Position numbers and translations under genes: made by a program. The notes beneath the pieces are model-generated. The model was not told the DNA's origin, did no database searches, and saw only the letters and a list, made by a program, of their open reading frames with translations. Below are positions 2,782 through 59,647 of a DNA stretch of 64,000 nucleotides, in pieces. The stretch comes from Blastococcus saxobsidens DD2. Its GTDB lineage: Bacteria; Actinomycetota; Actinomycetes; Mycobacteriales; Geodermatophilaceae. The stretch is taken from positions 4,381,541 through 4,445,540 of the forward strand of contig NC_016943.1 of NCBI RefSeq assembly GCF_000284015.1. Direction: 5' to 3'. The stretch's first letter is position 1, and each line of letters begins with the position of its first letter.

Positions 2782-4362
2782 TCATCTGCCGATGGCTCCG
2801 CCGAGGCGGCGGTACCGGTGCAGCCGGGTGCGGAAGCGCTCGGTGTCGTCCCGGCCGAGCAGACCGGCCAGCTCCTCGCCGAGCACCCGGCCCAGCCGCA
2901 GGCAGAACTCGGTCGGTTCGTCGGCGGCATCGGGCCGCTCCGGCACCACCCGGTCGACGATGCCGGCCCGCCAGAGATCGGTGGCCCGTACTCCCTGGTC
3001 GGCGGCCATCTCGCCGGCCCGGTCCACGGTGCGGTGCACGATGGCCGAGGCGCCTTCCGGCGGCAGCGGGCCCAGCCAGCCGTTGGCCGCGGCCAGCACC
3101 CGGTCGGCCGGCACCAGGGCGAGCGCCCCGCCGCCGGTGCCCTGCCCGAGCAGCACCGCCAGCGTCGGCGCCTTCAGCACCACCAGGTCGTGCAGGCAGC
3201 GGGCGATCTCCCCGGCCAGCCCGCCCTCCTCGGCCTCCCGCGACAGCGCCGCGCCGGGGGTGTCGATCAGGGTCACCAGCGGCAGCCGCAGCTCCGCGGC
3301 CAGGTGCATGCCGCGCCGCGCCTCGCGCAGGGCCGCCGGGCCCAGCGGCACCGACAGCGACTGGCCCCGCCGGTCCTGCCCGAGCACGACGCACGGGGCG
3401 CCGCCGAACCGGGCCAGCGCGAGCAGCAGCCCCGGGTCCTTCTCACCGGCCCCGGTGCCCGAGAGCCCGACGACGTCGGTGGCGGCGGTCCGCAGCAGCC
3501 GCCGCACGCCCGGGCGGTCCTCCCGTCGCGACGCGGTGACGACGTCCCAGGCGGTACGCCCGTCTGCACCGTCCACCCCGCCCAGCCCCGCGTCGGTGCC
3601 GTCCTCGGGGGTGGGCCGCTCGGCGTCCCGGACGTCGAGGTGCCAGGTCTGCCGGGCCGAGAGCACGCGCAGCGCGCGGTCGGCGACCTCGGCGATCTCC
3701 CCGTGCGGGACGACGGCGTCGATCAGGCCGTGCTCGGCCAGGTTATCGGCGGTCTGCACCCCTTCGGGGAACGGTTCGCCGTAGAGGGCCTCGAACACCC
3801 GCGGGCCGAGGAAGCCGACCGAGGCGCCGGGCTCGGCGATGGTGACGTGCCCGAGCGAGCCCCAGGAGGCGAGCACGCCGCCGAAGGTCGGGTGGCGCAG
3901 GTACACCAGGTAGGGCAGTCCGGCCTCCTTGTGCCGGGCGATGGCCGCGGTGATGCCGATCATCTGCAGGAAGGCGACCGTGCCCTCCTGCATCCGGGTG
4001 CCGCCCGACACCGGTGCCGCGAGCAGCGGCAGCCCCTCGTCGGTGGCCCGCTCCACCGCGGCGATCAACCGCTCGGCGGCGGCCACGCCGATGGAGCCGG
4101 CGAGGAAGCCGAACTCGCCGGCGACGACGGCCACGCGCCGGCCGCGCAGCCTCCCCTCGCCGGTGATGATCGACTCGTCCTGCCGCGACTTCTCCTCGGC
4201 CGCCGCCAGCTCGCGCGCGTAGCCCTCCGACACGTCGGGGCGGACGACCGGGGAGTCCCACGACGTCCACGAACCCGCGTCGAGCACGAGGTCCCGGAGC
4301 GAGCGTGCGTCGAGGCGCGCGGGCGGCACCGGCTCCGCCCGTAACGTGGGCGGCGAAATCAC
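2782..4362 (-). CDS. Fused acyl-CoA carboxyltransferase (AccD/AccA-like)
   Basis: A 526-residue protein with two crotonase-fold carboxyltransferase halves. The N-terminal half (about residues 50-240) is AccD/beta-like, with [11 protein letters not shown] and [10 protein letters not shown]. The C-terminal half (about 300-490) is AccA/alpha-like, with [25 protein letters not shown] and [11 protein letters not shown]. No N-terminal Cys4 zinc ribbon is present, unlike bacterial AccD. Start is GTG at 4362, sharing GTGA with the stop of the preceding gene, so the two are probably translationally coupled. No biotin carboxylase or biotin carrier gene lies nearby. It may therefore serve a housekeeping carboxylase or, in this context, handle malonyl units released from a ring-opened ureide, as malonate decarboxylase subunits (same fold) do. 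Fold is clear; reaction is not. Confidence 0.8.
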
Positions 4363-5462
4363 GCCTTGACGATCGCCGCGACCGGTCCGCCGCCGGACGG
4401 GCCCTGGTGCACCGCGGCCACCGACACGAACACGGCCGGGTCACCGGTCACCGACGCCGTCACCCCACCGACCGTCGCCTTGATCTGGCGGTGCCAGGAG
4501 ACGTCGGAGTCGTCGAGCATGGCGTTGCGGCGCCCACGGACCTTGCCGTCCGGCGAGGCCTCGCACTTGAGGAACACGTTGACCAGGCGGTCGCCCAGGT
4601 CGGTGTGGTGCGGACGCTCGGGCAGTTCGAGGCCGGCGTCGCGGATCGCCGCCCAGATGCCGTCCTGGTCCAGCGCGTCCTTCATCACCGAGTGGCCGAC
4701 CCGGTACGCACCGCCGTGGCCGCGGGCGTTGCCGACCACGACGATCTGCGCCCGGTCCAGCTCCACGCCCGACGAGCAGGAGGCGACGGCGCTGTACAGG
4801 GAGAGGTCACGCATGACCTGCTCCTGCGTCGGCATCTCGATCTCGCCGAGCGCCACCGCGATGCCCAGCGCCGTCGTGCCGTTGGAGACGTCCATGGAGC
4901 CGTGCGGCTCCTCCAGGATCGTCGTCTTTCCGCGCTGGTGGGCGTCGCGGATGGTGTCGATCGTCAGCAGCGGCGTCTTCGTCTGCACGTAGTGCACGTC
5001 GGCCGGGTCGGTGATGCCGGCGGCCTCCATCGCCTTCTTCACGCCCTCGGCGACCTTCTCCACCATCGCGACGCGGCCGATGTCCTCGGGCAGCAGGACG
5101 TCGCTCATCGCGTAGCCCACGGTCAGCCGCGGCTCGTCGGTCTTCTCGACCGCGTCCTCGGGCAGCGTGGCGAAGACCGTCGCGTGCGGGCTGATGACGC
5201 CGTCGGTGCCGCCGGACCACACGATCGGGATCTGCTTGACCTCGTCGGGCGAGCGCGTGCCCTTCTCGAGCAGCACCTCGCGGAAGGCGCGGTCGGCGAT
5301 GATCCGCGTGTAGTCGTTGATCCCGCCGTTGCCCTCCGTCTTGCCGATGACGGCGACGACCCGGTCGGCCTCCATCACGCCGTCGTCGATGAGCTTGGCC
5401 AGCTCGGAGGCGTCACTGACGTTGTGCAGCGGGACCTTGCGGACCTCGATCGGAGCGGGCAT
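4359..5462 (-). CDS. Ring-opening amidohydrolase (barbiturase/cyanuric acid hydrolase family)
   Basis: A 367-residue member of the AtzD/TrzD/barbiturase family, which opens cyclic ureides: cyanuric acid to carboxybiuret, or barbiturate to ureidomalonate. All three Lys-Ser pairs of the threefold repeat are visible: Lys41 ([10 protein letters not shown]) with Ser83 ([11 protein letters not shown]), Lys162 (QTKTPLL) with Ser230/231 (CSSGVELDR), and Lys299 (FLKCEAS) with Ser356 (GPSGGGPVA). Length matches the family. Start is ATG at 5462 after GAGAGAGTGAG. It sits in an operon with a carboxyltransferase, amidase and aldehyde dehydrogenase, which fits a catabolic role. Sequence reading cannot tell barbiturase from cyanuric acid hydrolase or from an enzyme acting on a larger fused ring. 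Confidence 0.92.
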
Positions 5463-9293: not shown

Positions 9294-10583
9294 TCACGGT
9301 GCGGGCACGCGGAACCGGGTGTCCGGGTCGGCCCGCTCGGCGGCAGCAGCACACTGCGCGCAAGGGACGGTGGCGTGCCGCTCGACGACGCCGGCGAACT
9401 GGGTGAGCAGGGTGCGCGCCAGGCAGGCGGCCCCGTCGAGGGTGGCGCAGGAGCCGCGGCCGGGCAGCGTCCTCGTCCAGCGTTCGAGGTTGGCGACGTC
9501 GGTGTCCTGCTGCGTGCCCAGACCGATCCTTTCCAGGGCCTGGTGCATCGCCGCGGTGCCCTTGAAGCAGGAGCCGCACTGGTGGGCGTTCTCCCGGTCG
9601 AAGAACGCCATGACGTCGGTCGCGACGTCCACCGGGCAGGCGCCGGGAAGGAAGATGAAGGATCCGCAACCGACCCCGGTACCCAGCCTGCGGAACCCGT
9701 CGAAGTCCAGGGGCGCGTCGAGCGCCACGTCCGGGAGGAAGCCCGAGAAGAAGCCGCCGGAGAGGACAGGCGTGCCGGGCGAGACGTCCAGCCCCAGTGC
9801 CTGGCGCGCAACCTCTCTCAGCGTCGTGCCCGCGGGTACCTCGGTGAGGACGACCTGGTCGGGATCCAGCAGCGTGAGCATGAGCAGGTCGACCGGCGGG
9901 TCCTGGTCGAGAGCCGCAGCGGTCCACAGCCGGCAGGCGCGGGCCAGCGTCTCCACGTTCATGACCGCCGTCGGCCGCTGCCCGACCCCGGACTCGAACG
10001 GGCGCGGCGGCTTCTGCGTGGGCAGCGCTGGACCACCGTCCAGCGCACGGACGACGGCGGACTCCTCACCGCTGACGTAGCCGCGGGGCGCAAGGAACAC
10101 CTCGATCCCCAGAAGGCCCCGCTCGGCGATCGCGGCGAGGACCCGATCGCGGCCGAGCTCGTCGGAGACGTAGACGTAAGCCGCATCGGCGACCAGCGCA
10201 CGTCGGACGATCTCCAGGCCCTCGAGGACGAGGTGGGGGCGGTGGCGGAGGAGGTAGCGGTCCTTGCAGCTGGCGGGCTCGCCCTCCTCACCGTTGGCCA
10301 CTACCGCGACCGGGCCGTCCGGCCGGCGGGAAACGACGGCCTCGATCTTGCGCCATGCGGGGAACCCGGCCCCGCCGCGGCCGCGGAGGTCGGCACGGCG
10401 CAGCACGTCCACGAGGGCGGCGCTGTCGGGCGGCGCCACCTCGGGGTACTCCTGCCGGAAGTCCGGAAGGGTCTCGGCCTCGGGGCCGGGCGCCAGCAGC
10501 AGGCCGGCCCCGAGGGGGCTCCAGGGCAGGACGTCCGGCACGCCGTACCTCGGGCGCGGGACGGCGTGAAGGGCATCAGGCAA
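9294..10583 (-). CDS. NuoF-like FMN/iron-sulfur NADH oxidoreductase
   Basis: A 429-residue homologue of the NADH-binding subunit NuoF/HoxF. RGRGGAGFPAWRKI (67-80) is the FMN/NADH site and NGEEGEPASCKDR follows at about 97. The C-terminal iron-sulfur region has CGSC in HQCGSCFKG, but the third Cys of the usual CxxCxxC triplet is Gly, while extra Cys residues occur nearby (GVGCGSF, GSCATL, CAQC near the end). No NuoE or other complex I gene is near. Start is TTG at 10583 after GGGGGG, overlapping the SDR stop by 8 bp. Paired with a ferredoxin, it probably acts as a stand-alone NADH:ferredoxin reductase. The altered cluster site makes its iron-sulfur content uncertain. Confidence 0.82.
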   Translation of the reverse strand: MPDALHAVPRPRYGVPDVLPWSPLGAGLLLAPGPEAETLPDFRQEYPEVAPPDSAALVDVLRRADLRGRGGAGFPAWRKIEAVVSRRPDGPVAVVANGEEGEPASCKDRYLLRHRPHLVLEGLEIVRRALVADAAYVYVSDELGRDRVLAAIAERGLLGIEVFLAPRGYVSGEESAVVRALDGGPALPTQKPPRPFESGVGQRPTAVMNVETLARACRLWTAAALDQDPPVDLLMLTLLDPDQVVLTEVPAGTTLREVARQALGLDVSPGTPVLSGGFFSGFLPDVALDAPLDFDGFRRLGTGVGCGSFIFLPGACPVDVATDVMAFFDRENAHQCGSCFKGTAAMHQALERIGLGTQQDTDVANLERWTRTLPGRGSCATLDGAACLARTLLTQFAGVVERHATVPCAQCAAAAERADPDTRFRVPAP

Positions 10584-11391
10584 CGGACAGCCCCCCGTCG
10601 GGACGCAGCACGTGGCCGGTGAGTCCGCGGCTCTGGCTCGTGAGCAGGTAGAGGTAGTGCGGCACCAGGTCCTCGGCGCTGAGGACGGTCCGAAGGGGGT
10701 TGATCGAACGGATCTGCTCCACCACGCTCTCGACGTCGCCGTAGACGGCCTTCTCCGCCTCGGCGCCCGGGGCGAGGCTGCTCAACCCGGTGGGCACACC
10801 TCCCGGGGCCACTGCGTTGACGCGGACGCGTGGGGCCAGCTGGGCGGCGAGCGAGCGCACGACGCCCAGGCCGGCGTGCTTGGACGCCGCGTACGCGACG
10901 CCGGCGCCGTTGCCCGACACGACGAACGAGGCATCGGAGAGCGTGAAGACCATCGTGCCGTCGGCACGCTCGACGGCGTCCGCGGCGGCGCACGCCCCCA
11001 CCAGGTAGCCGACGACGTTCACGTCCAGGATGCGACGCGCCAGGTCGCGCATCTGGCCGGGGCTGAGGTCGCGTACCGTGGCCCCGCCGTCGTGGACGCC
11101 GGCGTTGCCCACGAACGCGTCCAGCCGGCCGAACTCCGCCACAGCGAGGTCCACCGCCCGCTGGTTGGCTTCGGGGTCGGTGACGTCACCGACCACGTGC
11201 AGGGACCGCCCGGACGTCCCCTCGACGGCCTGGGTCTCTGGCGCCGCGCCGTCCCGGTCGAGGGTCACGACGTGGCTGCCTCGCCGGAGAAGGGCCTGCC
11301 CCAGGGCTCGACCGATGCCGGAGGCCCCTCCGGTCAGGAGAACGACGCTGCCGGCGAGCTCGTCCTCGAAAGATGACTGCGGGTAGGCCAC
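10576..11391 (-). CDS. Short-chain dehydrogenase/reductase
   Basis: A classical SDR of about 271 residues: TGGASGIG cofactor loop, GNAGV, and YAASK with the catalytic Tyr and Lys; the serine is in FTLSDASFV. It oxidises or reduces an alcohol/carbonyl with NAD(P)H; in aromatic pathways such enzymes re-aromatise the cis-dihydrodiol made by a Rieske dioxygenase. GTG at 11391 is preferred because GGAGGG lies 4 bp upstream and the N-terminus then fits the family; ATG at 11421 is possible but has no ribosome-binding site. It is the first gene of the left-pointing arm, directly downstream of the proposed IclR operator, and overlaps the next gene by 8 bp. Confidence 0.85.
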   Translation of the reverse strand: MAYPQSSFEDELAGSVVLLTGGASGIGRALGQALLRRGSHVVTLDRDGAAPETQAVEGTSGRSLHVVGDVTDPEANQRAVDLAVAEFGRLDAFVGNAGVHDGGATVRDLSPGQMRDLARRILDVNVVGYLVGACAAADAVERADGTMVFTLSDASFVVSGNGAGVAYAASKHAGLGVVRSLAAQLAPRVRVNAVAPGGVPTGLSSLAPGAEAEKAVYGDVESVVEQIRSINPLRTVLSAEDLVPHYLYLLTSQSRGLTGHVLRPDGGLSVA

Positions 11392-11433
11392 GGAACCCTC
11401 CACTCTGGGTGGCGTACGCATACGCGGCGTTTT

Positions 11434-11458
11434 CGGACAGTGTGTCCGCTATGTGGAC
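11434..11458. promoter_or_regulatory. Predicted IclR-type operator, copy 1
   Basis: This 25-nt stretch shares 19 positions with 23032-23056: GGACA, then T at position 10, then TCCGCTATG-N-GGAC. Read on the minus strand the core is GTCCACATAGCGGAC, an imperfect palindrome resembling operators described for IclR-family regulators. An exact inverted repeat, CGGACA-GTG-TGTCCG (11434-11448), overlaps it. It lies between the divergent SDR (minus) and LysR (plus) genes and so could control either. An IclR gene is at 21148-21966. Confidence 0.6.
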
Positions 11459-11536
11459 GTGATGTTCGACTAGGCTGGCCCTCGTTGTCAAGCACTCGCG
11501 CCGCCGGGATGACGCCGCGAGGGAGGAGTGGGAGAC

Positions 11537-12442
11537 ATGAATTTGCATGGCGTCGACCTCAACTTGCTCGTGGCCCTCGACGCCCTGCTCGCGGAACGCA
11601 ACGTCACGCGCGCCGCCGAGCGGCTGTCGATCGGCCAGCCCGCAATGAGCGCAGCCCTGAACCGGCTCCGGAAGCTATTCGACGACCCGCTCCTGTCACG
11701 GGTGGGCGGTGAACTGGTGCCGACGCCCCTGGCCGAGAGCTTGGTCCGACCGGTGCAGGAGGCTATCGCCGCGATTCAGTCGGTGCTCGGCGTCCGTGGC
11801 ACCTTCGATCCTCGCGTCGATCACCGAACGTTCACCGTCGTGGCCAGCGACTACGTCGGCCTCGTGTTGCTGCGGCACCTCGTCCGGCGGATGGCATCCG
11901 CCGCGCCTCGCGTCCGACTGGTCGTGCGACCGGTGCTGTCCGACTTCGTCGCGGACCTCCGGCGGGATCAGATCGACCTCGCGCTCGTCCCCCAGGAACT
12001 CATGCCCGAGCGACTCGAACTGCCCCACGAGGAGCTCTTCCGCGATCGATACGTCTGTGCGGTGGACGCCGGCAACACGGCGATCGGCGAGTCGCTGAGC
12101 CTCGAGGAGTTCACCCGCCATCCCCATCTCGCCAGCAGCGGCCACCCGCTGCCGGCGCTGGGCCAGCGCCAGATCGGTTCCCTCGGTCTGTTCCCGGCCG
12201 CGGAGGTCAGCACCCAGACTTCCCTGCTCGCCCCGTTCCTGCTGGCCGGGACCGATCTGATCACCCTCGTGCTTGAGCGGCTCGGCCGACAGCTGCAGGA
12301 CGTCGCCGGCATCCGTCTCGTGGAGCCGCCCGTCCCACTCCAGACAATCACCGAGGCCATGTACTGGCATCCGCGTCGCGCCGACGAACGCGGCCACCGG
12401 TGGCTCCGCGAACAGGTGAAGCAGGCTGCACTGGAGGTCTGA
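11537..12442 (+). CDS. LysR-family regulator (NahR/DntR/NodD-like)
   Basis: A 301-residue LysR-type regulator with the winged HTH at residues about 15-60 (NVTRAAERLSIGQPAMSAALNRLRKLF) and a periplasmic-binding-like effector domain behind it. The HTH wording is that of the NodD/NahR/DntR subgroup, often tied to aromatic compounds. ATG at 11537 is chosen because GGGAGGAG ends 7 bp before it; the GTG at 11528 lies inside that ribosome-binding site. It is divergent from the SDR-first operon and followed 129 bp later by the extradiol dioxygenase. It probably controls one or both sides of the intergenic region together with the IclR operator. Confidence 0.9.
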   Translation: MNLHGVDLNLLVALDALLAERNVTRAAERLSIGQPAMSAALNRLRKLFDDPLLSRVGGELVPTPLAESLVRPVQEAIAAIQSVLGVRGTFDPRVDHRTFTVVASDYVGLVLLRHLVRRMASAAPRVRLVVRPVLSDFVADLRRDQIDLALVPQELMPERLELPHEELFRDRYVCAVDAGNTAIGESLSLEEFTRHPHLASSGHPLPALGQRQIGSLGLFPAAEVSTQTSLLAPFLLAGTDLITLVLERLGRQLQDVAGIRLVEPPVPLQTITEAMYWHPRRADERGHRWLREQVKQAALEV

Positions 12443-15133: not shown

Positions 15134-15643
15134 TCAGTAGATGACGCTGGTCTGGCTGTCGTTGGGCAGCTCGGAGTCAAGGTAAACAGTCCGGTGCTGC
15201 AGCCGTAGCCCGTCCGGCGTCTCGACGATCACGTCGTGGCGCCCCGCGCTGGACAGCGAGGTGGCCTCGGGCAGCCGCGATCGCGCCACCAGCACGTTCG
15301 TGCCGACCGTCCAGCGGCCGTCCCTGGCGCCGGCATCGAGCACCCGCAGGTTGCTGACGAAGTGCCGGATGAACGCCGCCGGCCGCTCCGCCCAGGCGTA
15401 GTCGGAGTCGACGCGGGTGAACCGCATGGTGAGGAAGCTCTTCGACTCGTGGGCCAGGTAGATCCCATCGGCGTGCTGGGCCATCCCGGGATCCTCCCGG
15501 GACTGCGGGACCGGGACCTCGTAGACGAAGTCGTCGGTCAGCAGACCGAGCCAGTCCGTGTAGCGGCGCTCGTCCAGTGCCGCCGACTCCTCGACCAGGA
15601 AGTCCAGGAGCCGGGTACGCAGCCCGGTGTCGACGTCGATCAC
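15134..15643 (-). CDS. Aromatic-ring-hydroxylating dioxygenase, beta subunit
   Basis: A 169-residue small subunit of a Rieske non-heme iron oxygenase (NTF2/cystatin-like fold). It shows DFLVEESAALDERRYTDWLGLLTDDFVYEVPV at the N-terminus, the HFVSNLRV segment in the middle and LQHRTVYLDSELP near the end, all typical of the family. It has a structural role in the alpha3beta3 hexamer. Start is GTG at 15643, sharing GTGA with the alpha-subunit stop. Confidence 0.92.
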   Translation of the reverse strand: MIDVDTGLRTRLLDFLVEESAALDERRYTDWLGLLTDDFVYEVPVPQSREDPGMAQHADGIYLAHESKSFLTMRFTRVDSDYAWAERPAAFIRHFVSNLRVLDAGARDGRWTVGTNVLVARSRLPEATSLSSAGRHDVIVETPDGLRLQHRTVYLDSELPNDSQTSVIY

Positions 15644-16938
15644 TGTGCAGCCTCTCCGTTCAGCTGGGCGAGGTACCGGCGGTAAAAGTTGCGCTGGTTG
15701 TGCTCGCTGAAGTCCTGGGACAGGACCGTGCACGGACCCGAGAAGGGGGGCTTGCCCGAGACCGGCTCGACGCCAACGCCCAAGTCGTAGTTCTGGGGGA
15801 CGTCCGCGGCGGCGATACCGCCCAGGCCGGCGTCGATCCGGCGGAAGTTCTCGAGGTCGTCGGCCTCGAAGTACGACGACGCGCCGTGCTGGCGGACGGA
15901 GTACAGGTAGGACTTCTTCTTCCACTCCTCCGGGGCGTCCTTCGGCACCAGCGCCCAGTAGGTCACCTCGTGCGAGTGCGCATCCACCGGCATGACGGTG
16001 CGCACCTGGGTGAAGGCGGTCTGCCCCTCGGCGTCGGTGCCGAACGTGACCGGTGCAGTGGTGATGAACGGCATGTTGGGGAAGACCGTGCCGTGGATGA
16101 CCGAGCTAGCGGCACGGAAGGCCATCGCGTCGGGCAGGTCCGCGGGCCGGGCGCCGTCCAGCAGGCCGTCGGGGTAGCCGAAGACGATGTCGGACAGCGA
16201 CTCGTCGTCGACGTACTGAGCCCGAACCCCGTGGCCCTCCGGCGCGGAGATGCAGAAGCCCTTCACCGCACCCGCCTGCGTCCCCATGACGCCCAGCTCG
16301 AACATCGTGCGGTGCGCGATGCGCAGGTGATAGCCGTCGCCGATGAAGTTCTCCGCGTGGATCTTCCAGTTGCCCTTGACGATCACGCGGTGAGCACCGC
16401 CGTAGACCTCCATGCCGCCGGGGAAGAACCCGAACACCCGGTCGAGGTACCAGCGGAAGTCGCCCAGGAATTCGTCGAGGGACGGACCCTCGTGATCGAA
16501 TGTCGCGTACACCAGGCCGTGCACGGCGCCGACGCGAGCCTTGCGCAGCCCGAGGGTCTTCAGGTCCAGGTCCGGCCCGTACACCGCTCGGCGGCCTGGG
16601 ACCCCCCGCAGCTGCCCGTCGTTGCCGAAGGTCCAGCCGTGGTAGCCGCAGCGGAAGTTCGCCGAGTTGCCGAAGGCGGCCTTGCAGACCTGCGTACCGC
16701 GGTGGGTGCACGAGTTGTGCAGGACGTGCAGTTCCCCGGACTCGCTGCGGGTCAGGATCACCGGGTCCACGCCCATGCGGCGGGTCACGTAGTCGCCCGG
16801 CTGGGGTACCTCGGACTCGAAGCCCACGAGCAGCCAGGACTTGGCGAAGACCGTCGCCAGCTCCTGCCTCAGGACCTCCTCGTCGGTGTAGAGGCGTCGT
16901 GTCACCGACGGCCGTGCTGTGGTGTCCTCGATCGTCAT
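15640..16938 (-). CDS. Aromatic-ring-hydroxylating dioxygenase, alpha subunit (Rieske)
   Basis: A 432-residue catalytic subunit. The Rieske [2Fe-2S] ligands are Cys77, His79, Cys97 and His100 (SCTHRG and CGYHGW). The mononuclear iron site is ENFIGDGYHLRIAH with Asp201, His204 and His209. It adds O2 to an aromatic ring to give a cis-dihydrodiol, with electrons probably from the ferredoxin and NuoF-like protein in the other arm, since none is encoded here. Start is ATG at 16938, overlapping the ABC ATPase stop by 4 bp. Tight linkage to an importer suggests the substrate is taken up intact. The substrate class cannot be read off; motifs look like naphthalene/biphenyl/benzoate-type alpha subunits. 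Confidence 0.93.
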   Translation of the reverse strand: MTIEDTTARPSVTRRLYTDEEVLRQELATVFAKSWLLVGFESEVPQPGDYVTRRMGVDPVILTRSESGELHVLHNSCTHRGTQVCKAAFGNSANFRCGYHGWTFGNDGQLRGVPGRRAVYGPDLDLKTLGLRKARVGAVHGLVYATFDHEGPSLDEFLGDFRWYLDRVFGFFPGGMEVYGGAHRVIVKGNWKIHAENFIGDGYHLRIAHRTMFELGVMGTQAGAVKGFCISAPEGHGVRAQYVDDESLSDIVFGYPDGLLDGARPADLPDAMAFRAASSVIHGTVFPNMPFITTAPVTFGTDAEGQTAFTQVRTVMPVDAHSHEVTYWALVPKDAPEEWKKKSYLYSVRQHGASSYFEADDLENFRRIDAGLGGIAAADVPQNYDLGVGVEPVSGKPPFSGPCTVLSQDFSEHNQRNFYRRYLAQLNGEAAQ

Positions 16939-18479
16939 CGGTCGTTCTCCTCCCTGGTGGGCGCCGCGGCGTTCCGGTCACCGGCGGCGTAGCACGCTGC
17001 GTAGATCTCGTCGATGTGGTCCAGTCCCGCCGGCAGTTCGCCCACCAGGGCGCCCCGCCGCATGACCAGCACGCGGTCCGCGCACTCGGCCACCTCTTCG
17101 GCGTCGGACGACACGTACAGGACGCCGAGCCCCTCGTCCACGAGGTCACGGACACGGCGCAGGAGCGCCCGCCGGGTGTTCTCGTCGACACCCTGGGTCG
17201 GCTCGTGCAGGACGAGCACTCGTGGGTCGTGCTCCAGCACGCGGGCGAACAGCACCTTCTGCTGGTTGCCCCCGCTGAGCGCGGACATCGGCAGCTCGGG
17301 GTCCGGCGGCATCACCGCGTAATCCGCACAGATGTCGCGCGCCCACGCCTTCTCCCGCTGGACCCGCAGCACACCCCCGGTGCGGTGCGACGCCCGGCTC
17401 GCCGGCGACAGGTTCTCCCGCACCGAGGCGCGGGGGACGATGCCTTGGCGGAGCCGGTCGGCGGGCAGCACCCCCAGTCCGCTCTGCTGCGCTTCCCGGA
17501 CGCTCCGGCCGGTGTACGGCTCGCCGGCCACGCCGATGCTGCCCACCGAGCGCTTGGTGACCCCGCACAGCAGGTACGGCACCTCGTCGTGCCCGGCACC
17601 CGCGGCTCCGGTGAGCCCCACGATCTCGCCGGGACGGACCGCGAAGTCGAGGTCGTGGACGGCGGCTCCGGTCAACGATCGGACGGTCAGCACCTCGTCC
17701 CCGATGGAAGCCTGGCGACCGCTGGGGCCGACCTTCGGCGGCACCTTCCCGCCGCCGATCAGCCGGAGGAGGTCGTCCTCGGTGACCCCGGCGACGTCGA
17801 CGGTGTCGACCACCCGCCCGCTGGCCAGCACCGTCGCGCGGTCGGCATCGGCCAAGACCTCCGACATGTGGTGGGTGACGAGCAGGACCCCGCCGCCGTG
17901 CGCGGCGACGGCGCGGGCTGCGGAGAGCACCTTCTCCGCATCCGGCCCGCGCAGCGCGGCGGTGGCCTCGTCGAGCACCAGCAGATCGAGGCCTTCGACC
18001 CCGCCGCTGGCCTTCAGCGCCCGCGCGATCGCGGTGATCGCCTTGTCCGCCGGCGAGAGATCGGCCACGATGTCGTCGAGGCCGAAGTCTGCTCCGAGCG
18101 AGGTGAGGATCTCCGCCACCACCCGGCGCTCCTGCTTCCAGTTGATCATGCCGAGCCGGCGCTGGAAGCTGCCCATGCCGCAGTTCTCCACGACGGTGGC
18201 CGACCGGCACAGCCCGAGGTCCTGGTGCACGATGCCGACTCTCGCGCCCGCACCGTCGAGTCCGCCCATGGTGATGGAGCCGGAGTCGGCGGCCTGGAAC
18301 CCGCTGATGATCTTCACGAGCGTCGACTTGCCGCAGCCGTTGTGGCCCAGTAGAGCGTGCACCTCACCGCGACGCACCTCGAAGGTGACGTCGCGCAGTG
18401 CGTGGGTGGCGCCGAACTGCTTGCCGACCCCGCGGACTAGCAGCGGCGGTGCGGCGGGGCTCGCGACAGCGGCGGTCAT
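16935..18479 (-). CDS. Ribose-type ABC transporter ATPase (RbsA/MglA-like, two NBDs)
   Basis: A 514-residue double nucleotide-binding protein of the CUT2 (RbsA) class. The first domain has an intact Walker A (GHNGCGKS) and Walker B (LLVLDEAT) but a degenerate signature (LSPADKA). The second has a degenerate Walker A (GAAGAGHDE) but a good signature (LSGGNQQK), with HEPT in place of DEPT. This asymmetry is usual in the family. Start is ATG at 18479, 13 bp after the binding-protein gene. It energises the permease at 19779-20807. Confidence 0.92.
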   Translation of the reverse strand: MTAAVASPAAPPLLVRGVGKQFGATHALRDVTFEVRRGEVHALLGHNGCGKSTLVKIISGFQAADSGSITMGGLDGAGARVGIVHQDLGLCRSATVVENCGMGSFQRRLGMINWKQERRVVAEILTSLGADFGLDDIVADLSPADKAITAIARALKASGGVEGLDLLVLDEATAALRGPDAEKVLSAARAVAAHGGGVLLVTHHMSEVLADADRATVLASGRVVDTVDVAGVTEDDLLRLIGGGKVPPKVGPSGRQASIGDEVLTVRSLTGAAVHDLDFAVRPGEIVGLTGAAGAGHDEVPYLLCGVTKRSVGSIGVAGEPYTGRSVREAQQSGLGVLPADRLRQGIVPRASVRENLSPASRASHRTGGVLRVQREKAWARDICADYAVMPPDPELPMSALSGGNQQKVLFARVLEHDPRVLVLHEPTQGVDENTRRALLRRVRDLVDEGLGVLYVSSDAEEVAECADRVLVMRRGALVGELPAGLDHIDEIYAACYAAGDRNAAAPTREENDR

Positions 18480-18492
18480 CGGGTCAGCCCCC

Positions 18493-19695
18493 TCATGCCA
18501 GGCCCCACAGCGCCAGGTACCCGTCGCGGTACTCGGTGCCGAAGAGCGCCTCGTTCACCGCCATCTGTGAGCTGGTGTCAAGGTCCTGGACGTCATCCGT
18601 GGTGACGTAACGGACCGGCAGGACCGGGTCCGCCGGATCCATGCCCAGCATGCCCCGCAGTGCCTGGTCCACGGCGGCCCAAGCCGCCCAGTCGTTGTTC
18701 TGCGCGACGTTGGCGACGGCGATGTCCCCTTCTGCCACCAGGTCGAGCGCGGCCGCCGTGCCGTTGAAGGAGGCCATGTCGACCTGGTCGACGGCACCCG
18801 CCTGCCGCACACCGGTGCTGGCGAACAGCGTCATCGCATCGTAGATCGGCAGCATGAAGTTGAGGTCCGGGTTGCTCCGCACGACCGAGGCCGCCTGACC
18901 GGGCAGTTCGGTGGACCAGTCCACCAGTGCGGTATCCGTCTCGGTGTACTCGCAGTCCTCGCACTCGTCGAGGATTTCGGTCATCCCGCCCACGAGGACC
19001 GGGGCGACGGTCAGCTCCGAGGTGTTCATGATGGCGACATTGGCCGCGCCGTCGGTCTCCACGACGGCGGTGGCACCAAGCAACCGGCCCACCAGGTCGC
19101 TGTCCGGAGCGACGTTGCCGTACACATTGGGATCGGACCCCTGCCCCGGCACCCCCGCCTCCGGGGGCGTGTTGATGACGTCGACGACTGGTATCCCGGC
19201 CTCGGCCGCGGCCGCGATCTGGTCGGCGATGATCTGCACCGGCAGTCCGACGCTGATGATCGCGTCCACCCCGCTGTTGATCGCCTGCGTCATGCCCTGG
19301 TTCACCAGTGTCGGGTTCCCCTGGCCGTCGAACACCGTCGTCTGCAACCCGATCTGCTCGGCAACATCCTGAGCACTGTCGGTCACCTCGGTCAGTGCGG
19401 GCACCCGCAGGTCGATCGCGATCAGCGCGATGGTCCGACCCTCCAGCTGCGTGGCGTCGAACGCCGGGCCGGGCTCGCCGAACTCCGGCTGGCCCGAGTA
19501 CTCGTCCAGGAGCCCCTGCATCTCCTCGACCAGAGCGGAGGCATCGCCGCCACCGCCCTCACCACCCGGCTCCTCCGCATCGGCGCAGGCGGTGAGCAGC
19601 AGAGCCGTCGCGGCGGTCGCCCCGACGATCGCTCGGCGGGAGGCACCGAGGCGTCGACGCGGGGGGCGACTGGGCAGGAATGACTGGAGCGACAT
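18493..19695 (-). CDS. Ribose-type ABC transporter substrate-binding lipoprotein
   Basis: A 400-residue periplasmic-binding type I lipoprotein. The N-terminus is positively charged, then a hydrophobic segment ending in a lipobox (LLTAC, Cys about 37) and a Gly/Glu-rich linker. The body has IALIAIDLRVPALTEVTD and the GVDAIISVGLP repeat typical of RbsB/LuxP-like proteins; a CEDC pair at about 255-258 may form a disulfide. Start ATG at 19695 with AGGAGG. It delivers the substrate of the catabolic locus to the permease. The ligand is not evident. Confidence 0.9.
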   Translation of the reverse strand: MSLQSFLPSRPPRRRLGASRRAIVGATAATALLLTACADAEEPGGEGGGGDASALVEEMQGLLDEYSGQPEFGEPGPAFDATQLEGRTIALIAIDLRVPALTEVTDSAQDVAEQIGLQTTVFDGQGNPTLVNQGMTQAINSGVDAIISVGLPVQIIADQIAAAAEAGIPVVDVINTPPEAGVPGQGSDPNVYGNVAPDSDLVGRLLGATAVVETDGAANVAIMNTSELTVAPVLVGGMTEILDECEDCEYTETDTALVDWSTELPGQAASVVRSNPDLNFMLPIYDAMTLFASTGVRQAGAVDQVDMASFNGTAAALDLVAEGDIAVANVAQNNDWAAWAAVDQALRGMLGMDPADPVLPVRYVTTDDVQDLDTSSQMAVNEALFGTEYRDGYLALWGLA

Positions 19696-19778
19696 GGGTG
19701 CCTCCTGGGGCTGGGAGAGGGAGCGGTGCGTGAGCGGGTGGGGCGTCTCGGGGGAGAGCGGTCCGACAGCCGGCGCCG

Positions 19779-20807
19779 TCACGTTTTCCGCCCGAAGATT
19801 CGGGAGAAGGCGACGGCGAGGATGAGCACGGCCCCGTTGAAGACGTCGGTGACCCAGCTGCTGAGACCCAGCAACTGGAAGCCGGTGGTCCCCACGGCCA
19901 GCAGGTAGACGGCGAACAGGGTGCCCCAGACGTTGAACCGTCCGGGGGTGAAGGCGGTGGCGCCGAGGAACGCCGCGGCGTAGGCCGGGAGGAGGTACGG
20001 CGCCGCGATGGACGGGCTGGCCGCACCGATCTGGCCGACCAGCATGACGCCGGCCAGCGAGGCGAGCACGCTGGAGGTGACCAGCGACCCCACCCGCAGC
20101 GCGTTCACCCGGATGCCGGCGAGGGCCGCGGCGGTCGGAGCCTCGCCCGTGAAGAAGATGTTGCGGCCCAGCGGCATCTTCTGGAGCAGGATCCACCCGA
20201 TCAGGGCGACGACCAGCATGATGAAGAAGGCGGCCTCGATCCCGAGGATCTCGGTCCGGAAGACGTCGGTCAGCCCCTGCGGGACACCGCCGATGGTCGT
20301 CGTACCAGCCAGGCCGATCGCCGCACCCGTGACGAGCGTGCCCATGCCGAGCGTGACGATGAACGAGTGGATGCCGACCTTGACCACGAAGAACGACGTC
20401 ACGGCGCCGATCAGCAGGCCGGCGACCAGCACCACACCGAGCGCGGCGAGGACGGAGAAGTCACGGGCCGTCGTCAGGTAGGCGACCACGCTGGCCGACA
20501 TGCCCATGACGGATGCGGCGGACAGGTCGAACTCGCCGACGAGCAGCACGACCGTGACCCCGAGCGCCAGCAGGGCGAGCGAGGCCTGGATGCCGAGCGT
20601 GGAGGTCAGGTTCGCCGTCGAGAAGAACGACTCGGGCCGGAGGATGGAGAAGACGGCGATCAGCGCCGCGAGTGCGACCAGGAGCGCGTAGCGCTGCAGG
20701 ACCACCCCGCCCACGCGGCCGACGACGCCGACGCCCGTCCCCTTCGCCTCGTCCGGCGAGCCGCTGCCCGTCGCCTCCAGGCGCACCGTGGACTCCGTGG
20801 TCACCAT
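19779..20807 (-). CDS. Ribose-type ABC transporter permease (RbsC-like)
   Basis: A 342-residue membrane permease with about nine to ten hydrophobic helices and the family sequences LTSTLGIQASLALLALGVTVVLL and VGEFDLSAAS near the N-terminus. Start ATG at 20807 follows GAGGAG. It is the first gene of the transporter-dioxygenase operon, with a 340-bp upstream gap holding a probable promoter. Only one permease gene is present, as usual for CUT2 systems that work as homodimers. Confidence 0.92.
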   Translation of the reverse strand: MVTTESTVRLEATGSGSPDEAKGTGVGVVGRVGGVVLQRYALLVALAALIAVFSILRPESFFSTANLTSTLGIQASLALLALGVTVVLLVGEFDLSAASVMGMSASVVAYLTTARDFSVLAALGVVLVAGLLIGAVTSFFVVKVGIHSFIVTLGMGTLVTGAAIGLAGTTTIGGVPQGLTDVFRTEILGIEAAFFIMLVVALIGWILLQKMPLGRNIFFTGEAPTAAALAGIRVNALRVGSLVTSSVLASLAGVMLVGQIGAASPSIAAPYLLPAYAAAFLGATAFTPGRFNVWGTLFAVYLLAVGTTGFQLLGLSSWVTDVFNGAVLILAVAFSRIFGRKT

Positions 20808-21147
20808 GCCGCTCTCCTCGCTCGACGCATGTCGGGTCGTTCCATCACCGTCCGCAGCGGTCTCGCTCCGGATGTCCGCGCGAGGAGCGGGAGGACCAGG
20901 CGGGAACCGATTACGGCTACGATGTTTGCAATGCGGATACGATGGTCGGAAATGTGACCGACGTCAAGCGCTTCAGGTAACAGCTCAGTCAGGGATTCGT
21001 CAGGTTCAGGTGACGCGTCGGCCACGGTGCGTCAGCCGATCCCCAGGACGGTCAACGAAGGCGCCGGCGACCATGCAGACGGCTCGCGGGACGGGTCCCC
21101 GTCGACCCCGGTGGCGGGCCGGGGTCGGAAGTCGCGAGAGGGCGTTC
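20808..21147. other. Intergenic region with the probable promoter of the transporter-dioxygenase operon
   Basis: This 340-bp gap between two left-pointing genes holds no convincing gene. On the minus strand TTGACG (20962-20967) can be a -35, with TCGTAT about 19 bp further as a weak -10. Just downstream, GTATCCGCATTGCAAAC (20924-20940, minus strand) resembles one half of the TATCCGCTATG operator motif. The rest of the gap shows nothing clear. Confidence 0.4.
20924..20967 (-). promoter_or_regulatory. Candidate promoter with degenerate IclR half-operator
   Basis: TTGACG at 20962-20967 is a -35-like box. The sequence TATCCGCATTG inside 20924-20940 matches the left half of the 25-nt motif (TATCCGCTATG), while the right half (GGAC) is lost. 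If real, the IclR regulator would also control the transporter-dioxygenase genes directly. Confidence 0.35.
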
Positions 21148-21966
21148 TCAGGCGCCGGCGCGATAGGCCGCGTCGCGGTAGGCGCGCCAGCCCAGCGACT
21201 CGGAAAGCGTGACGGCGGTGTCCATGAGCAGCTGGCGCTGCTGGTCGGCCACATCGGCGTCGTCGATCAGTTGGAGGGGCAGGACGGCGCTGACCGCGGC
21301 GGCCACGGACCCGTCCTTGCGGAAGACCGGCACGGCGATCGACCCGTTGTCGCTCTGGAGCTCCGCCCGGGAGACGGCGTAGCCCTGCTCCCGGATCTGT
21401 GCGAGGACCGTCGTCATCGCGTCCGGATCGGTCACGGTCCTGGACGACACTCGCTGCAGCGGCTCGGCCAGGTAGGCCGCCACGAACTCGGGGCTCTCGA
21501 AGGCGAGGAGAACCTGACCGAAGGACACCGCGTGCAGCGGGACCCGGTACTGCTCGCGGATCCGCCGGACCGCGGGGACCTGAGGGTTCTGCTCGGCGAA
21601 GAGCGTGACCGCCTCGGAGTCGCACCGCTCGGTCAGCTTGAGCAGGCCCTGGATGCTGGGGAGCAACTGCTCCAGGTGTCGGAGGCCCACGCCCAGCACG
21701 GCGTGATCGCGGATGTAGCTGCTGGCCAACGCCCAGAGCGTCGGTCCGACGGAGTACTCGCCGGTGTCCGGATCGCGCTGGAGCATGCCCTCCTCGGTCA
21801 GCCCGCGCACCGTGCGGTAGATCGTCGCCCACGGCGCGTCCAACTCGCGCGACAGGTCACTGGGACGCATCGGCCGGTCGGCCAGGGTGCGGAGGATCCG
21901 TGTGCCCCGCGACAGAGACTTCACCTGCGGGAGACCGCGCGGGGGCGCACCGACCTGCTCGGTCAT
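21148..21966 (-). CDS. IclR-family transcriptional regulator
   Basis: A 272-residue IclR protein: N-terminal winged HTH (PSDLSRELDAPWATIYRTVRGLTEEGML, about residues 37-65) and a C-terminal GAF-like effector domain (VPLHAVSFGQVLLAF, GSIAVPVFRKDG). Start ATG at 21966 overlaps the dehydrogenase stop by 4 bp. IclR proteins usually act as local regulators of catabolic operons and bind near-palindromes with TCCGC-type cores. The motif copies at 11434 and 23032 flank the operons it would control, and it would autoregulate through the latter. Confidence 0.92.
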   Translation of the reverse strand: MTEQVGAPPRGLPQVKSLSRGTRILRTLADRPMRPSDLSRELDAPWATIYRTVRGLTEEGMLQRDPDTGEYSVGPTLWALASSYIRDHAVLGVGLRHLEQLLPSIQGLLKLTERCDSEAVTLFAEQNPQVPAVRRIREQYRVPLHAVSFGQVLLAFESPEFVAAYLAEPLQRVSSRTVTDPDAMTTVLAQIREQGYAVSRAELQSDNGSIAVPVFRKDGSVAAAVSAVLPLQLIDDADVADQQRQLLMDTAVTLSESLGWRAYRDAAYRAGA

Positions 21967-22964
21967 GACCTCTTCCTCGTTCCCTCGGACATGCCGGACC
22001 CAGCCGGCTGTACACCCACGGTGACCACCCGGCCCTCGTCCAGCGCCGCCCGGGCGGCCTCGACGAGGAACTCGGTGCGCAGCGCCTCCTGGAGGTCGCA
22101 GGGGTTCGGCCCGGCGCCCCGCGCGAGTGCGAGGAAAGCGTCGACTTCGGCATGGTAGGCGTCGAGGAAGCGGTCCCGGAAATCCACGACGGTGCTCGCA
22201 GGTACTGGTTCCGGCTTCTCGGCCACCGTTCGGCGGTTGCCGACGACCACGACCTCCTCCGCCGTCTCCACCTCCACCGTCAGGTCGAACCCGGCGACGG
22301 AGCGGTAGCCGCCCCACACAGCGGCAAGGCCGCCGTCTGCGAGCTCGAGGGTGACGGCCGCCGTCATCGTCTCCGGGTCCGCGGGTGCGCCGACCGCCGG
22401 CAGGACAGCGACCCGGGTCACCTCGCTGCCGGTCAGCCACCGGACCATGTCCAGCTCGTGCACCAGCTTGTCCGCGATCAGCCCCCCGGCCCCGGCGAGG
22501 TACTCCGCCGACGGCGCGAACTCCGTCGTCGAGTGCACCCGCACCAGCCGCGGACCGGGGGATGCCGCCACCCGCTCGGCGAGCTCTCGGAGCGCGGGGT
22601 CGAAGCGGTAGTGGAAGCCCACCTGCACCGGGCAGCCGCTGCGGCGCGCGCGTTCGGCCAGCGCCTGCACCTGGGCCAGCTCGGCGGCGACGGGCTTCTC
22701 GCAGAAGGCGGGGAGGCCGGCGTCCATCGCGCGGTCAAGGAGGGCCACGTGCGTGGCCGTCGGGGAGGCGATGACCACCGCGTCGACCTGGGCGACGAGC
22801 TCGTCAGCCCCGGTCACCGCGCACGCCCCGTACTCCTGCGCAAGAGCAGCCACCCGGGCCGCATCCGGGTCGTACAGGTGCACGGTGGAGACATCCGGGT
22901 GCGCGGTCAGCGTGCGCAGGTGCACCTCACCGATGCGACCGGCCCCTGCCAATCCCACGCGCAT
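21963..22964 (-). CDS. Gfo/Idh/MocA family NAD(P)-dependent dehydrogenase
   Basis: A 333-residue oxidoreductase with GLAGAGRIGEVH at the N-terminus (Rossmann), the family EKP motif (CEKPVAAE) at about residue 90 and HELDMVRWLTG in the catalytic domain. Relatives oxidise inositols and sugars. ATG at 22964 follows GAGGGG by 5 bp and is preferred to the in-frame GTG at 22970. First gene of the second arm, behind the operator at 23032-23056. Together with a ribose-type importer it hints that the substrate carries a sugar or polyol part, which is inference. Confidence 0.88.
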   Translation of the reverse strand: MRVGLAGAGRIGEVHLRTLTAHPDVSTVHLYDPDAARVAALAQEYGACAVTGADELVAQVDAVVIASPTATHVALLDRAMDAGLPAFCEKPVAAELAQVQALAERARRSGCPVQVGFHYRFDPALRELAERVAASPGPRLVRVHSTTEFAPSAEYLAGAGGLIADKLVHELDMVRWLTGSEVTRVAVLPAVGAPADPETMTAAVTLELADGGLAAVWGGYRSVAGFDLTVEVETAEEVVVVGNRRTVAEKPEPVPASTVVDFRDRFLDAYHAEVDAFLALARGAGPNPCDLQEALRTEFLVEAARAALDEGRVVTVGVQPAGSGMSEGTRKRS

Positions 22965-23031
22965 GCGCACCCCTCGGTCGACTCGTCCTGCGTCCTGGCT
23001 GATTCCCCACGCACGGCCGGGGCCAAGTAGG

Positions 23032-23056
23032 TGGACACCTTATCCGCTATGAGGAC
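23032..23056. promoter_or_regulatory. Predicted IclR-type operator, copy 2
   Basis: Matches 11434-11458 at 19 of 25 positions (GGACA, T, TCCGCTATG-N-GGAC). It lies 68-92 bp before the dehydrogenase start. On the minus strand GATAAGGT inside the motif could be a -10 box, so bound regulator would block RNA polymerase. No other full copy was noticed in the window. Confidence 0.6.
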
Positions 23057-23140
23057 AAAAGGGGAACCGTTGCGGCCGTTGACTCCGTGTGCCGGCCATA
23101 TCGGGCCGCCTGGAATCAGCCGGAGGGGCGGTCGACGGCC

Positions 23141-56574: not shown

Positions 56575-56611
56575 GTGGGCCCCGTGGGGATCGAACTCTC
56601 AACCCGCGGAT
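56575..56611. repeat. att-like repeat, distal end (partial tRNA-Lys copy)
   Basis: Copy of the 3' half of the tRNA-Lys gene: GTGGGGATCGAAC and AACCCGCGGAT are shared. The differences from 59574-59610 are two bases just beyond the first 22; after 56611 the similarity fades. It cannot form a complete tRNA. Confidence 0.75.
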
Positions 56612-56816
56612 CAACAGCTCCCCCGAGACGCTCTTCTGAGCAGCGAGAACCCGGCCGACGCGGACGTCATCGGCCGCTGGATGAGCGCGGCGATTTCCGG
56701 CGTCTATGCGATTGCGGTTCTCGAGCAGCTCAGCGACCGGTCGCAGCACCTCGTGCTCCACGAGACCAGTCTGCGCCGAGGCGCGGGAACGAGAGGCGGT
56801 CTAACGACAGGAGAGA

Positions 56817-56835
56817 GGCCCCGTGCAACGGGGCC
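56817..56835 (-). terminator. Hairpin terminator after the antitoxin gene
   Basis: Perfect 8-bp stem GGCCCCGT-GCA-ACGGGGCC, 18 bp beyond the antitoxin stop in the direction of that operon. Confidence 0.6.
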
Positions 56836-56853
56836 CCTTCCTGGTTCATCGAG

Positions 56854-57171
56854 CTAGCCGAGCAGTTCCCCTAGTCGCTTCACGTCCACCTGGAGTCGCT
56901 CGACGATGTTCGACAGCGACCCGTTGTCGTGCTCGACCATGCCGCGGAGAATCCATCCGCGGACCAGGGTCGACACCGGCACGTCCATCCGACGTGCGAT
57001 GGTCTCGATGGCTGCGATGTCGTTCGGGTCCAGACGGACGGAAAACACCTGGGCTCGATTGCGGTTGCGTCGAACGCCGGCCGCGGGCAGATCCTCCCCG
57101 CGAGTGAGTTCCGAAGCGTTCCGCTCGTCGACCGCAACCTTCTGCAACTCCTCGTGCGTGAGCTGACTCAT
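56854..57171 (-). CDS. Probable ribbon-helix-helix antitoxin
   Basis: A 105-residue protein. Residues about 42-75 read FSVRLDPNDIAAIETIARRMDVPVSTLVRGWILRGM, a clear ribbon-helix-helix DNA-binding unit (strand then two helices). An acidic N-terminal arm and a C-terminal helix could hold a toxin. ATG at 57171 follows AGGAGG by 7 bp and overlaps the upstream toxin-like stop by 4 bp. The order toxin then antitoxin is that of BrnT/BrnA-type modules. It would repress its own promoter at 57486-57514. Confidence 0.75.
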   Translation of the reverse strand: MSQLTHEELQKVAVDERNASELTRGEDLPAAGVRRNRNRAQVFSVRLDPNDIAAIETIARRMDVPVSTLVRGWILRGMVEHDNGSLSNIVERLQVDVKRLGELLG

Positions 57172-57479
57172 CCTTCCGCCTCCTCTCGATACCTGCGGCT
57201 GTCGGTGCTGTTGGAGCGCCACCCGTTGACCCCGTACCAGCCGCTTCCGTCCAACTCGGTGTCAGCGTGCAGCAGGATGACGGTGAGGATGGCGCGGGCG
57301 GTCTGGGAGTAGCCGATGACACGCACGCTGAGACCTGATCGACTCTTCGGGTCCGGGTCGAACCAAAGAGCATCGACGTCGTTGACGGCTTCCGTGGCCT
57401 CCCCTGGGCTCACCTGGTGGCGGCTGAACATGTGGTCGACCGCGTCCGGGAGGAACGTCCAGTCGACCTTCTCGATCAC
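57168..57479 (-). CDS. Probable BrnT-like toxin
   Basis: A 103-residue protein (VIEKVDWTFLPDAVDHMFSRHQVSPGEATEAVNDVDALWFDPDP...VRVIGYSQTARAILTVIL). The RH-x-VSPxEA helix, the DPDPKSRSG loop and the VIGYS strand fit the BrnT-type RelE-like fold, though the typical BrnT catalytic residues cannot be placed with certainty. GTG at 57479 is chosen because a -10 box ends 6 bp before it, implying a leaderless message; the frame is open to 57536. It may be an RNase held by the RHH protein encoded just behind it. Confidence 0.6.
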   Translation of the reverse strand: MIEKVDWTFLPDAVDHMFSRHQVSPGEATEAVNDVDALWFDPDPKSRSGLSVRVIGYSQTARAILTVILLHADTELDGSGWYGVNGWRSNSTDSRRYREEAEG

Positions 57480-57485
57480 CCGGTT

Positions 57486-57514
57486 AGTGTATGACGCGCT
57501 GTAATACGCGACAA
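57486..57514 (-). promoter_or_regulatory. Leaderless promoter of the toxin-antitoxin pair
   Basis: On the minus strand TTGTCG (57509-57514) and TACACT (57486-57491) are separated by exactly 17 bp. The GTG start at 57479 begins 7 bp after the -10, so transcription would start on the start codon. No ribosome-binding site precedes it. Confidence 0.6.
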
Positions 57515-57538
57515 TCGTTCGCAGGCAAGGTCCCACGG

Positions 57539-57584
57539 GCGGGTCAGCGCCTTCGGCCTGTTCTGACCAGAGGCGCTGACCCGC
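57539..57584. repeat. 14-bp perfect inverted repeat
   Basis: GCGGGTCAGCGCCT (57539-57552) and AGGCGCTGACCCGC (57571-57584) with an 18-nt loop. It may be a terminator, a protein-binding site or a recombination-related structure of the element. Confidence 0.55.
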
Positions 57585-57841
57585 TCACGGTGGGTTCGAC
57601 ATCGTCCTCGACGGCATCAGCGTCGAGCTGGCGCCGTCGCCCTGAGGAGACCGCCGTTCCCCGACTGCACCGCCGCCCGCCGCCCGCTCTCGACGGACTG
57701 GACGCCCTCGAACCAGCACTGGATACGAGCAAGATCACGAGGTGACACGTCTCATGCATTCGCGGTGGGTGGCACTCGTTGTGACGAGTAGGCGGGCGCT
57801 GCGAGTGGATGCCGTGCGGCGTCGCGCGGGACGATCGCGCC

Positions 57842-58345
57842 ATGGCCCAGCGATCGGGTGAGGACCCGCAGGTCCTCCACCGGAAATCGCAGGCCGCGAT
57901 CCTGTCCAGCCTCGCCGACGGGAACGACGACGCCTTCGAGCTCATGCTGTCGGTCCGGCCGTACGACGTCCGCGGCCACTTCACGCCGGACGTCGCACTG
58001 CTCGAGGTGGCAGCGGCGGCGCTCGGGCTGGCCAGCCCGCCCGGAAACGAGCGGCTGGAGTACGAGGGACTGACGGATCGCTACCTGGCCGACCTGATGC
58101 TCGACGGCCGCACCCTGCACCGCCGGACGCAGTACGCCATCTACGCGGCCGCATGCATGCGCGGCGGACTGCATCCCGACCTGCTGATGGAGGCCGGCGG
58201 CTGGAAGCCGAGGCTGTGGACGCACGCCGTCTCGGCCGTCGTCCTGTACAGCCGAGCTGCGGCCGACCGCCTCGGGGTACCCCTATCCGAGGTCGCCTCG
58301 AGGGTCGCTCAGGAGCTCGGCCTCGAGCTGTCCGAGGGGACCTGA
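57842..58345 (+). CDS. Hypothetical cargo protein of the integrative element
   Basis: A 167-residue soluble, mostly helical protein (MAQRSGEDPQVLHRKSQAAILSSLADGNDDAFELMLSVRPYD...). A segment HRRTQYAIYAAACMRGGLHPDLLMEAGGW and a helix ending in LGLELSEGT are the only notable features. ATG at 57842 has no strong ribosome-binding site. It lies 75 bp before the integrase and points the same way, so it may regulate excision or be a cargo function. No family recognised. Confidence 0.55.
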   Translation: MAQRSGEDPQVLHRKSQAAILSSLADGNDDAFELMLSVRPYDVRGHFTPDVALLEVAAAALGLASPPGNERLEYEGLTDRYLADLMLDGRTLHRRTQYAIYAAACMRGGLHPDLLMEAGGWKPRLWTHAVSAVVLYSRAAADRLGVPLSEVASRVAQELGLELSEGT

Positions 58346-58420
58346 GCGAACTGCCGGCTGCAGGACCGATTCTCCGGTCCGGGCGACGATATCCCGAGAA
58401 CTTCCGCCACGGAGTCCCCC

Positions 58421-59641: not shown

Positions 59642-59647
59642 AGGCCC
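59575..59647 (-). tRNA. tRNA-Lys (anticodon TTT)
   Basis: A 73-nt cloverleaf on the minus strand: acceptor GGGCCTC paired with GGGGCCC (one G-T pair), D stem GCTC/GAGC, anticodon stem GCGGA/TCCGC with loop CTTTTAA, T stem GTGGG/CCCAC with TTCGATC, discriminator A. CCA is not encoded. It is the integration site of the element to its left. Confidence 0.95.

Follow-up and report, generated by a model that had tools for sequence, protein, structure and literature searches.

Two 25-nt sequences in the genome of Blastococcus saxobsidens DD2, each directly before a left-pointing gene, raise the question of whether they are copies of one operator and, if so, which regulator reads them and with what effect. 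We addressed this question in a 64-kb stretch of the genome (the window). The two sequences, CGGACAGTGTGTCCGCTATGTGGAC at 11434-11458 and TGGACACCTTATCCGCTATGAGGAC at 23032-23056, are exactly as an earlier note had described them, i.e., identical at 19 of 25 positions, with TCCGCTATG unbroken in both and GGAC at either end. The gene arrangement that the note had read from the window was also confirmed, as the sites precede, respectively, an SDR gene (10576-11391, reverse strand; cis-dihydrodiol-dehydrogenase-like) and a Gfo/Idh/MocA oxidoreductase gene (21963-22970, reverse strand), and the latter is the first gene of a unit in which the second encodes an IclR-family regulator of 272 amino acids (21148-21966, reverse strand; PcaR/PcaU/PobR-like). 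A LysR gene (11537-12442, forward strand) is divergent from the SDR gene.

The reverse strand also carries the genes for a Rieske ring-hydroxylating dioxygenase (15134-16938; alpha, 15640-16938; beta, within 15134-15925), for which naphthalene dioxygenase is the best PDB match of the alpha protein, and for an ABC importer with an ATPase of the ribose/arabinose type (16935-18479) and a permease and substrate-binding protein (18493-20807; permease, 19779-20807; binding protein ending at 18493). For the DapA-like protein, no PDB relative was found by sequence. The left arm ends in a gene (4359-5462) for a cyanuric-acid-amidohydrolase-like ring-opening amidohydrolase (AtzD/TrzD family), which scores above the NCBIfam cut-off for cyanuric acid amidohydrolase and is accompanied by carboxyltransferase and amidase genes (2782-4362 and 1246-2685); an AtzD fragment (77%) is likewise linked to the cluster at locus L117. 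The association of an AtzD-like gene with the cluster may point to a nitrogen-containing ring substrate. Elsewhere in the window, a direct repeat of 43 nt (91%) flanks approx. 3 kb with a tyrosine integrase gene (58610-59641), a ribbon-helix-helix protein gene and a small partner gene; one of the repeat copies is part of a tRNA-Lys gene (59573-59647). This region (56575-59616) resembles a small integrated element with attL and attR.

Taken as a pair, the two 25-mers are no more similar than chance allows. Against a background of approx. 9.8 kb of GC-rich spacer sequence from the window, their score of 22.2 fell within the range of the best pairs in 15 Markov shuffles (20.3-24.8), and several unrelated 25-mer pairs in the window spacers reach an equal score. 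This result is what would be expected if GC-rich spacers resembled each other by chance and shared no function, and the case for an operator must therefore rest on evidence beyond the pair. Such evidence comes, in the first place, from rarity. The sequence TCCGCTATGNGGAC has exactly 2 matches in the window, both inside the reported 25-mers, and the complete genome (4.88 Mb) contains the same 2 copies only and none with one mismatch; among 114 genomes of the same family, only two others contain it. A genome scan, which had been proposed as a check, found no unrelated copies of the motif in the organism's own genome. Matches to TCCGCTATGCGGAC in L003 and L004, one of which looks like spacer and one like coding sequence by its flanks, were not used, as neither genome yielded a close IclR orthologue.

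The second line of evidence is conservation across genera. A search of the 114 family genomes for the IclR protein gave no close orthologue (best match, 39%), and the matches listed in a plasmid search with this protein were all IclR proteins of approx. 30% identity. Orthologues with 64-67% identity were found in three genomes beyond that of the window, all from a single family (Nocardioidaceae), i.e., by genome scan in Nocardioides sp. LHD-245 (66%) and by a search of the family of this strain in G331 (67%) and G406 (64%). The clusters of these three relatives also contain orthologues of the SDR (66-68%), the DapA-like protein (79-81%), an ALDH (72-76%), an extradiol dioxygenase (75-79%), the Rieske protein (58-61%) and the ABC proteins. 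In all three, the motif is located directly before the SDR gene. In LHD-245, where the sites were originally located with the window motif, further copies precede the extradiol dioxygenase gene and a gene for a transporter-type binding protein, and this genome, with four operator copies, has the most of any. A Gfo/Idh orthologue is present in one of the three relatives only, and it also adjoins an operator copy. Inspection of the same spacers in relatives, the other comparison proposed at the outset, thus found the motif where the IclR orthologue is held.

The IclR gene of the catabolic cluster at 2782-24493 thus lacks a close orthologue in the 114 genomes of its own family and has orthologues of 64-67% in three Nocardioidaceae, a distribution that suggests horizontal transfer. 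More distant IclR relatives (37-39%) in G242, G327 and G373 showed no convincing copy of the motif. These three genomes have in common a conserved element, TATCCGCTGAGCGAAT-N7-TTCGCTGAATGA, approx. 4 kb from the gene for this more distant IclR protein (L114:15090, L115:5644 and L116:8142).

The motif was also recovered from the relatives without any data from the window. An unsupervised motif search of four Nocardioidaceae spacers converged on it in every spacer and always in one orientation. When a 38-bp matrix built from those four sites alone was run over the window, its three highest scores were at 11433 (23.8), 20913 (23.5) and 23031 (20.0), and the next independent place scored 9.5; on 60 random 64-kb sequences, the maxima averaged 12.3 and the largest was 18.7. 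A sequence-only covariance model from eight sites was then run on four whole genomes. In the genome of B. saxobsidens DD2, it reported only three places up to E = 10, i.e., those at 11435-11467 (operator 1; E = 1.1e-5 genome-wide), 20913-20950 (operator 3; 5.1e-5) and 23031-23068 (operator 2; 4.8e-4), and 114 family genomes lacking the IclR orthologue yielded one marginal match (E = 0.03). In LHD-245, a generalised motif had two perfect matches genome-wide, both in the orthologous cluster and one of them between the SDR gene and the IclR orthologue; the covariance model found an additional copy on a different contig, flanked by orthologues of the Gfo/Idh gene (55%) and the glyoxalase gene (67%) of the window. 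As operator 2 also adjoins this Gfo/Idh gene, the additional copy is a prediction that held true at an unlinked locus. G331 and G406 have no Gfo/Idh orthologue, and the covariance model detected no such site in their whole genomes. In G092, a separate tandem site of IclR-like form, GAACATCAGATGCGCATACCGAACATCATGTTC, immediately precedes a start codon (L132:1500-1540); it is probably the operator of another regulator.

Overall, with the motif kept at orthologous promoters in three genomes, unique genome-wide and recovered in the window by a matrix trained elsewhere, a chance likeness of the two 25-mers appears extremely improbable unless the orthology assignments are wrong. The earlier idea is right in substance, and what lies beyond chance is the genome-wide rarity of the motif and its conservation across genera; it is conservation, and not the match at 19 of 25 positions, that gives the case its strength.

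The operator is larger than the 25 nt first proposed, and it occurs at three sites in the window rather than two. The full element spans approx. 33 bp and consists of four boxes of the GGACA/TGTCC type (in general form, RRAYA/TRTYY) in alternating orientation. The boxes pair into two palindromes of 13 bp each, whose centres lie 20 bp, i.e., two helical turns, apart, a layout that would suit two dimers or a tetramer on the same side of the DNA. Operator 1 (forward strand; GGACAgtgTGTCC-gctatgt-GGACGtgaTGTTC) precedes the SDR operon, includes most of the segment at 11434-11458 and has the boxes GGACA-gtg-TGTCC-gctatgt-GGACG-tga-TGTTC. Operator 2 (forward strand; GGACAcctTATCC-gctatga-GGACA), upstream of the Gfo/Idh-IclR unit, has three clear boxes and a degenerate fourth. 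Operator 3 (forward strand; CTACGATGTTTGCAATGCGGATACGATGGTC), which the earlier note had missed, lies between the IclR stop codon and the start of the ABC permease gene, and the permease and substrate-binding protein genes are the first genes downstream of it. The palindromes are clear at the SDR promoters (e.g., GGATA-cat-TATCC-gttatgc-GAACA-tca-TGTTC in LHD-245) and weak at operator 3, in the second half of operator 2 and in two of the copies in the LHD-245 genome.

The inner boxes span a core that resembles TGTYCRYW3RYGRACA, the published consensus of IclR group 1 ("TGT-11-ACA"; PMC8222616). The three window sites fit this consensus at 16, 15 and 15 of 17 positions and those of the relatives at 14-16 of 17, which bears out the initial impression of an IclR-like core. 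The centres of tandem IclR palindromes have been reported to be 18-22 nt apart (PMC8222616), a range that includes the 20-nt spacing found here.

Operator 1 overlaps a putative promoter of the SDR operon (11462-11491, reverse strand), in which TTGACA (11491-11486) and, after an 18-bp spacer, GAACAT (11467-11462) are candidate -35 and -10 elements; GAACAT would be a weak -10 and lies inside the last box of the operator. The same arrangement, TTGACA-N17/18-GARCAT with GARCAT as the outermost half-box, is found at the SDR promoters of the window and of all three Nocardioidaceae, as well as at two further sites in LHD-245. Provided that these hexamers do serve as -35 and -10, both the -10 element and the transcription start lie under the operator. 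The SDR gene probably starts at the GTG at 11391, behind GGAGGG; from this start the centre of the core is approx. 60 bp upstream, which is within the published range of IclR sites. At operator 2, no promoter of the TTGACA type was found at the same spacing.

Two regulators encoded in the window could be considered as binders of these sites. The IclR protein has both family domains above the gathering score (PF09339, E = 1.9e-8; PF01614, E = 3.2e-25) and scores 98.4 bits against the TIGR02431 pcaR_pcaU model, under the curated cut-off of 284.75; judged by its sequence, it is thus a PcaU-like protein outside the PcaR/PcaU/PobR subfamily. It is the regulator common to all four clusters, its HTH region is near-invariant, and in each cluster its gene either belongs to an operator-controlled unit or immediately adjoins one, a placement consistent with autoregulation. 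Wherever the orthologue is held, sites are located before the regulator's own unit and before neighbouring operons. The relatives have a second, distant IclR gene between the Rieske and ABC genes, with no counterpart in the window cluster; no copy of the motif was found beside it.

The divergent LysR protein could instead bind the sites and activate the SDR operon and others, given that operator 1 lies between the LysR and SDR genes and that all but one of the three related clusters have LysR orthologues (57-59%). However, the genome of LHD-245 (G115) has four operator copies and no LysR orthologue, the motif in G331 and G406 is located between the SDR and extradiol genes, away from LysR, and, of the three window sites, only operator 1 adjoins a LysR gene. 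The sites also overlap the putative -10 rather than lying upstream of the -35. We thus rejected LysR as the binder, since the motif occurs where its orthologue is missing, and we regard this reading as very improbable.

From the position of the operators and from what is known of the family, we infer binding by the IclR protein, its oligomeric state, repression and an inducer. For the most part, IclR proteins control aromatic catabolism as well as their own genes, and they contact DNA as dimers or tetramers at sites that include three-box and tandem forms (PMC8222616). In the proposed mechanism, the IclR protein, probably as a tetramer and otherwise as two dimers, would occupy all four boxes from the same side of the helix at three promoters, i.e., those of the SDR-led unit, the ABC-importer/Rieske unit and the Gfo/Idh-IclR unit, and would through the last of these control its own gene. 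As the operator lies over the -10 element where a promoter is readable, bound IclR would be expected to cover this element and to block RNA polymerase until an aromatic-pathway substrate or intermediate freed it from the DNA. We consider it very likely that these approx. 33-bp operators of the IclR protein hold the aromatic-catabolic units off in this manner.

The same protein might recognise the motif and act on it as an activator, or in a dual mode, as with PcaU and PobR. These two regulators have three-box sites, activators and dual regulators are both known in the family (PMC8222616), and the lack of a recognisable promoter at the same spacing at operator 2 would fit such a role. In four genomes, however, the operator at the SDR promoter is placed over the putative -10 and start, an occluding position, and PheR, a member of the IclR family that represses phenanthrene genes, protects the stretch from +23 to -21 (PMC13273656). 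Activation or dual control thus appears unlikely, and the position of the operators suggests repression rather than activation of the PcaU/PobR type.

The predicted system has close parallels among known ones. PcaU and PobR of Acinetobacter baylyi likewise represent IclR-family control of aromatic catabolism through short boxes in alternating orientation, a third box included, and the PobR core TTGTCCGATSATCGGACAR resembles TGTCCGCTATGTGGAC here; in contrast to these, the full operators described here have a fourth box, and three promoters are predicted to be controlled. The core, the box order and the 20-bp spacing match the group-1 and the three-box and tandem sites compiled by Suvorova and Gelfand (2021; PMC8222616), whereas the regulon of the window is a prediction of the present analysis. 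PheR of Sphingobium sp. SHPJ-2 represses genes for phenanthrene uptake and a ring-hydroxylating dioxygenase (PMC13273656) and, like the predicted action of the window IclR, combines control of uptake and dioxygenase, with a footprint over the transcription start; it differs in that it comes from another bacterial class, has the core GCAACG and controls uptake of the TonB type rather than the ABC type. The predicted regulon is new, and the operator type and the mechanism are already known.

We tentatively raise a further possibility, somewhat doubtful at present, that the sites represent a four-box operator whose inner (group-1) and outer (group-2) pairs of boxes are both usable by an IclR orthologous group not described before, on an aromatic-ring pathway shared with Nocardioidaceae. 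If both pairs were usable, a single regulator could change from one dimerisation mode to the other, and the alternating-box layout offers a clean series of naturally occurring sites on which the two modes proposed for IclR proteins could be tested. For B. saxobsidens DD2, these data provide an uncharacterised aromatic-degradation cluster with a predicted regulator, a three-unit regulon and a precisely defined operator, and they indicate that the regulatory wiring has been kept along with the enzymes between this organism and Nocardioidaceae.
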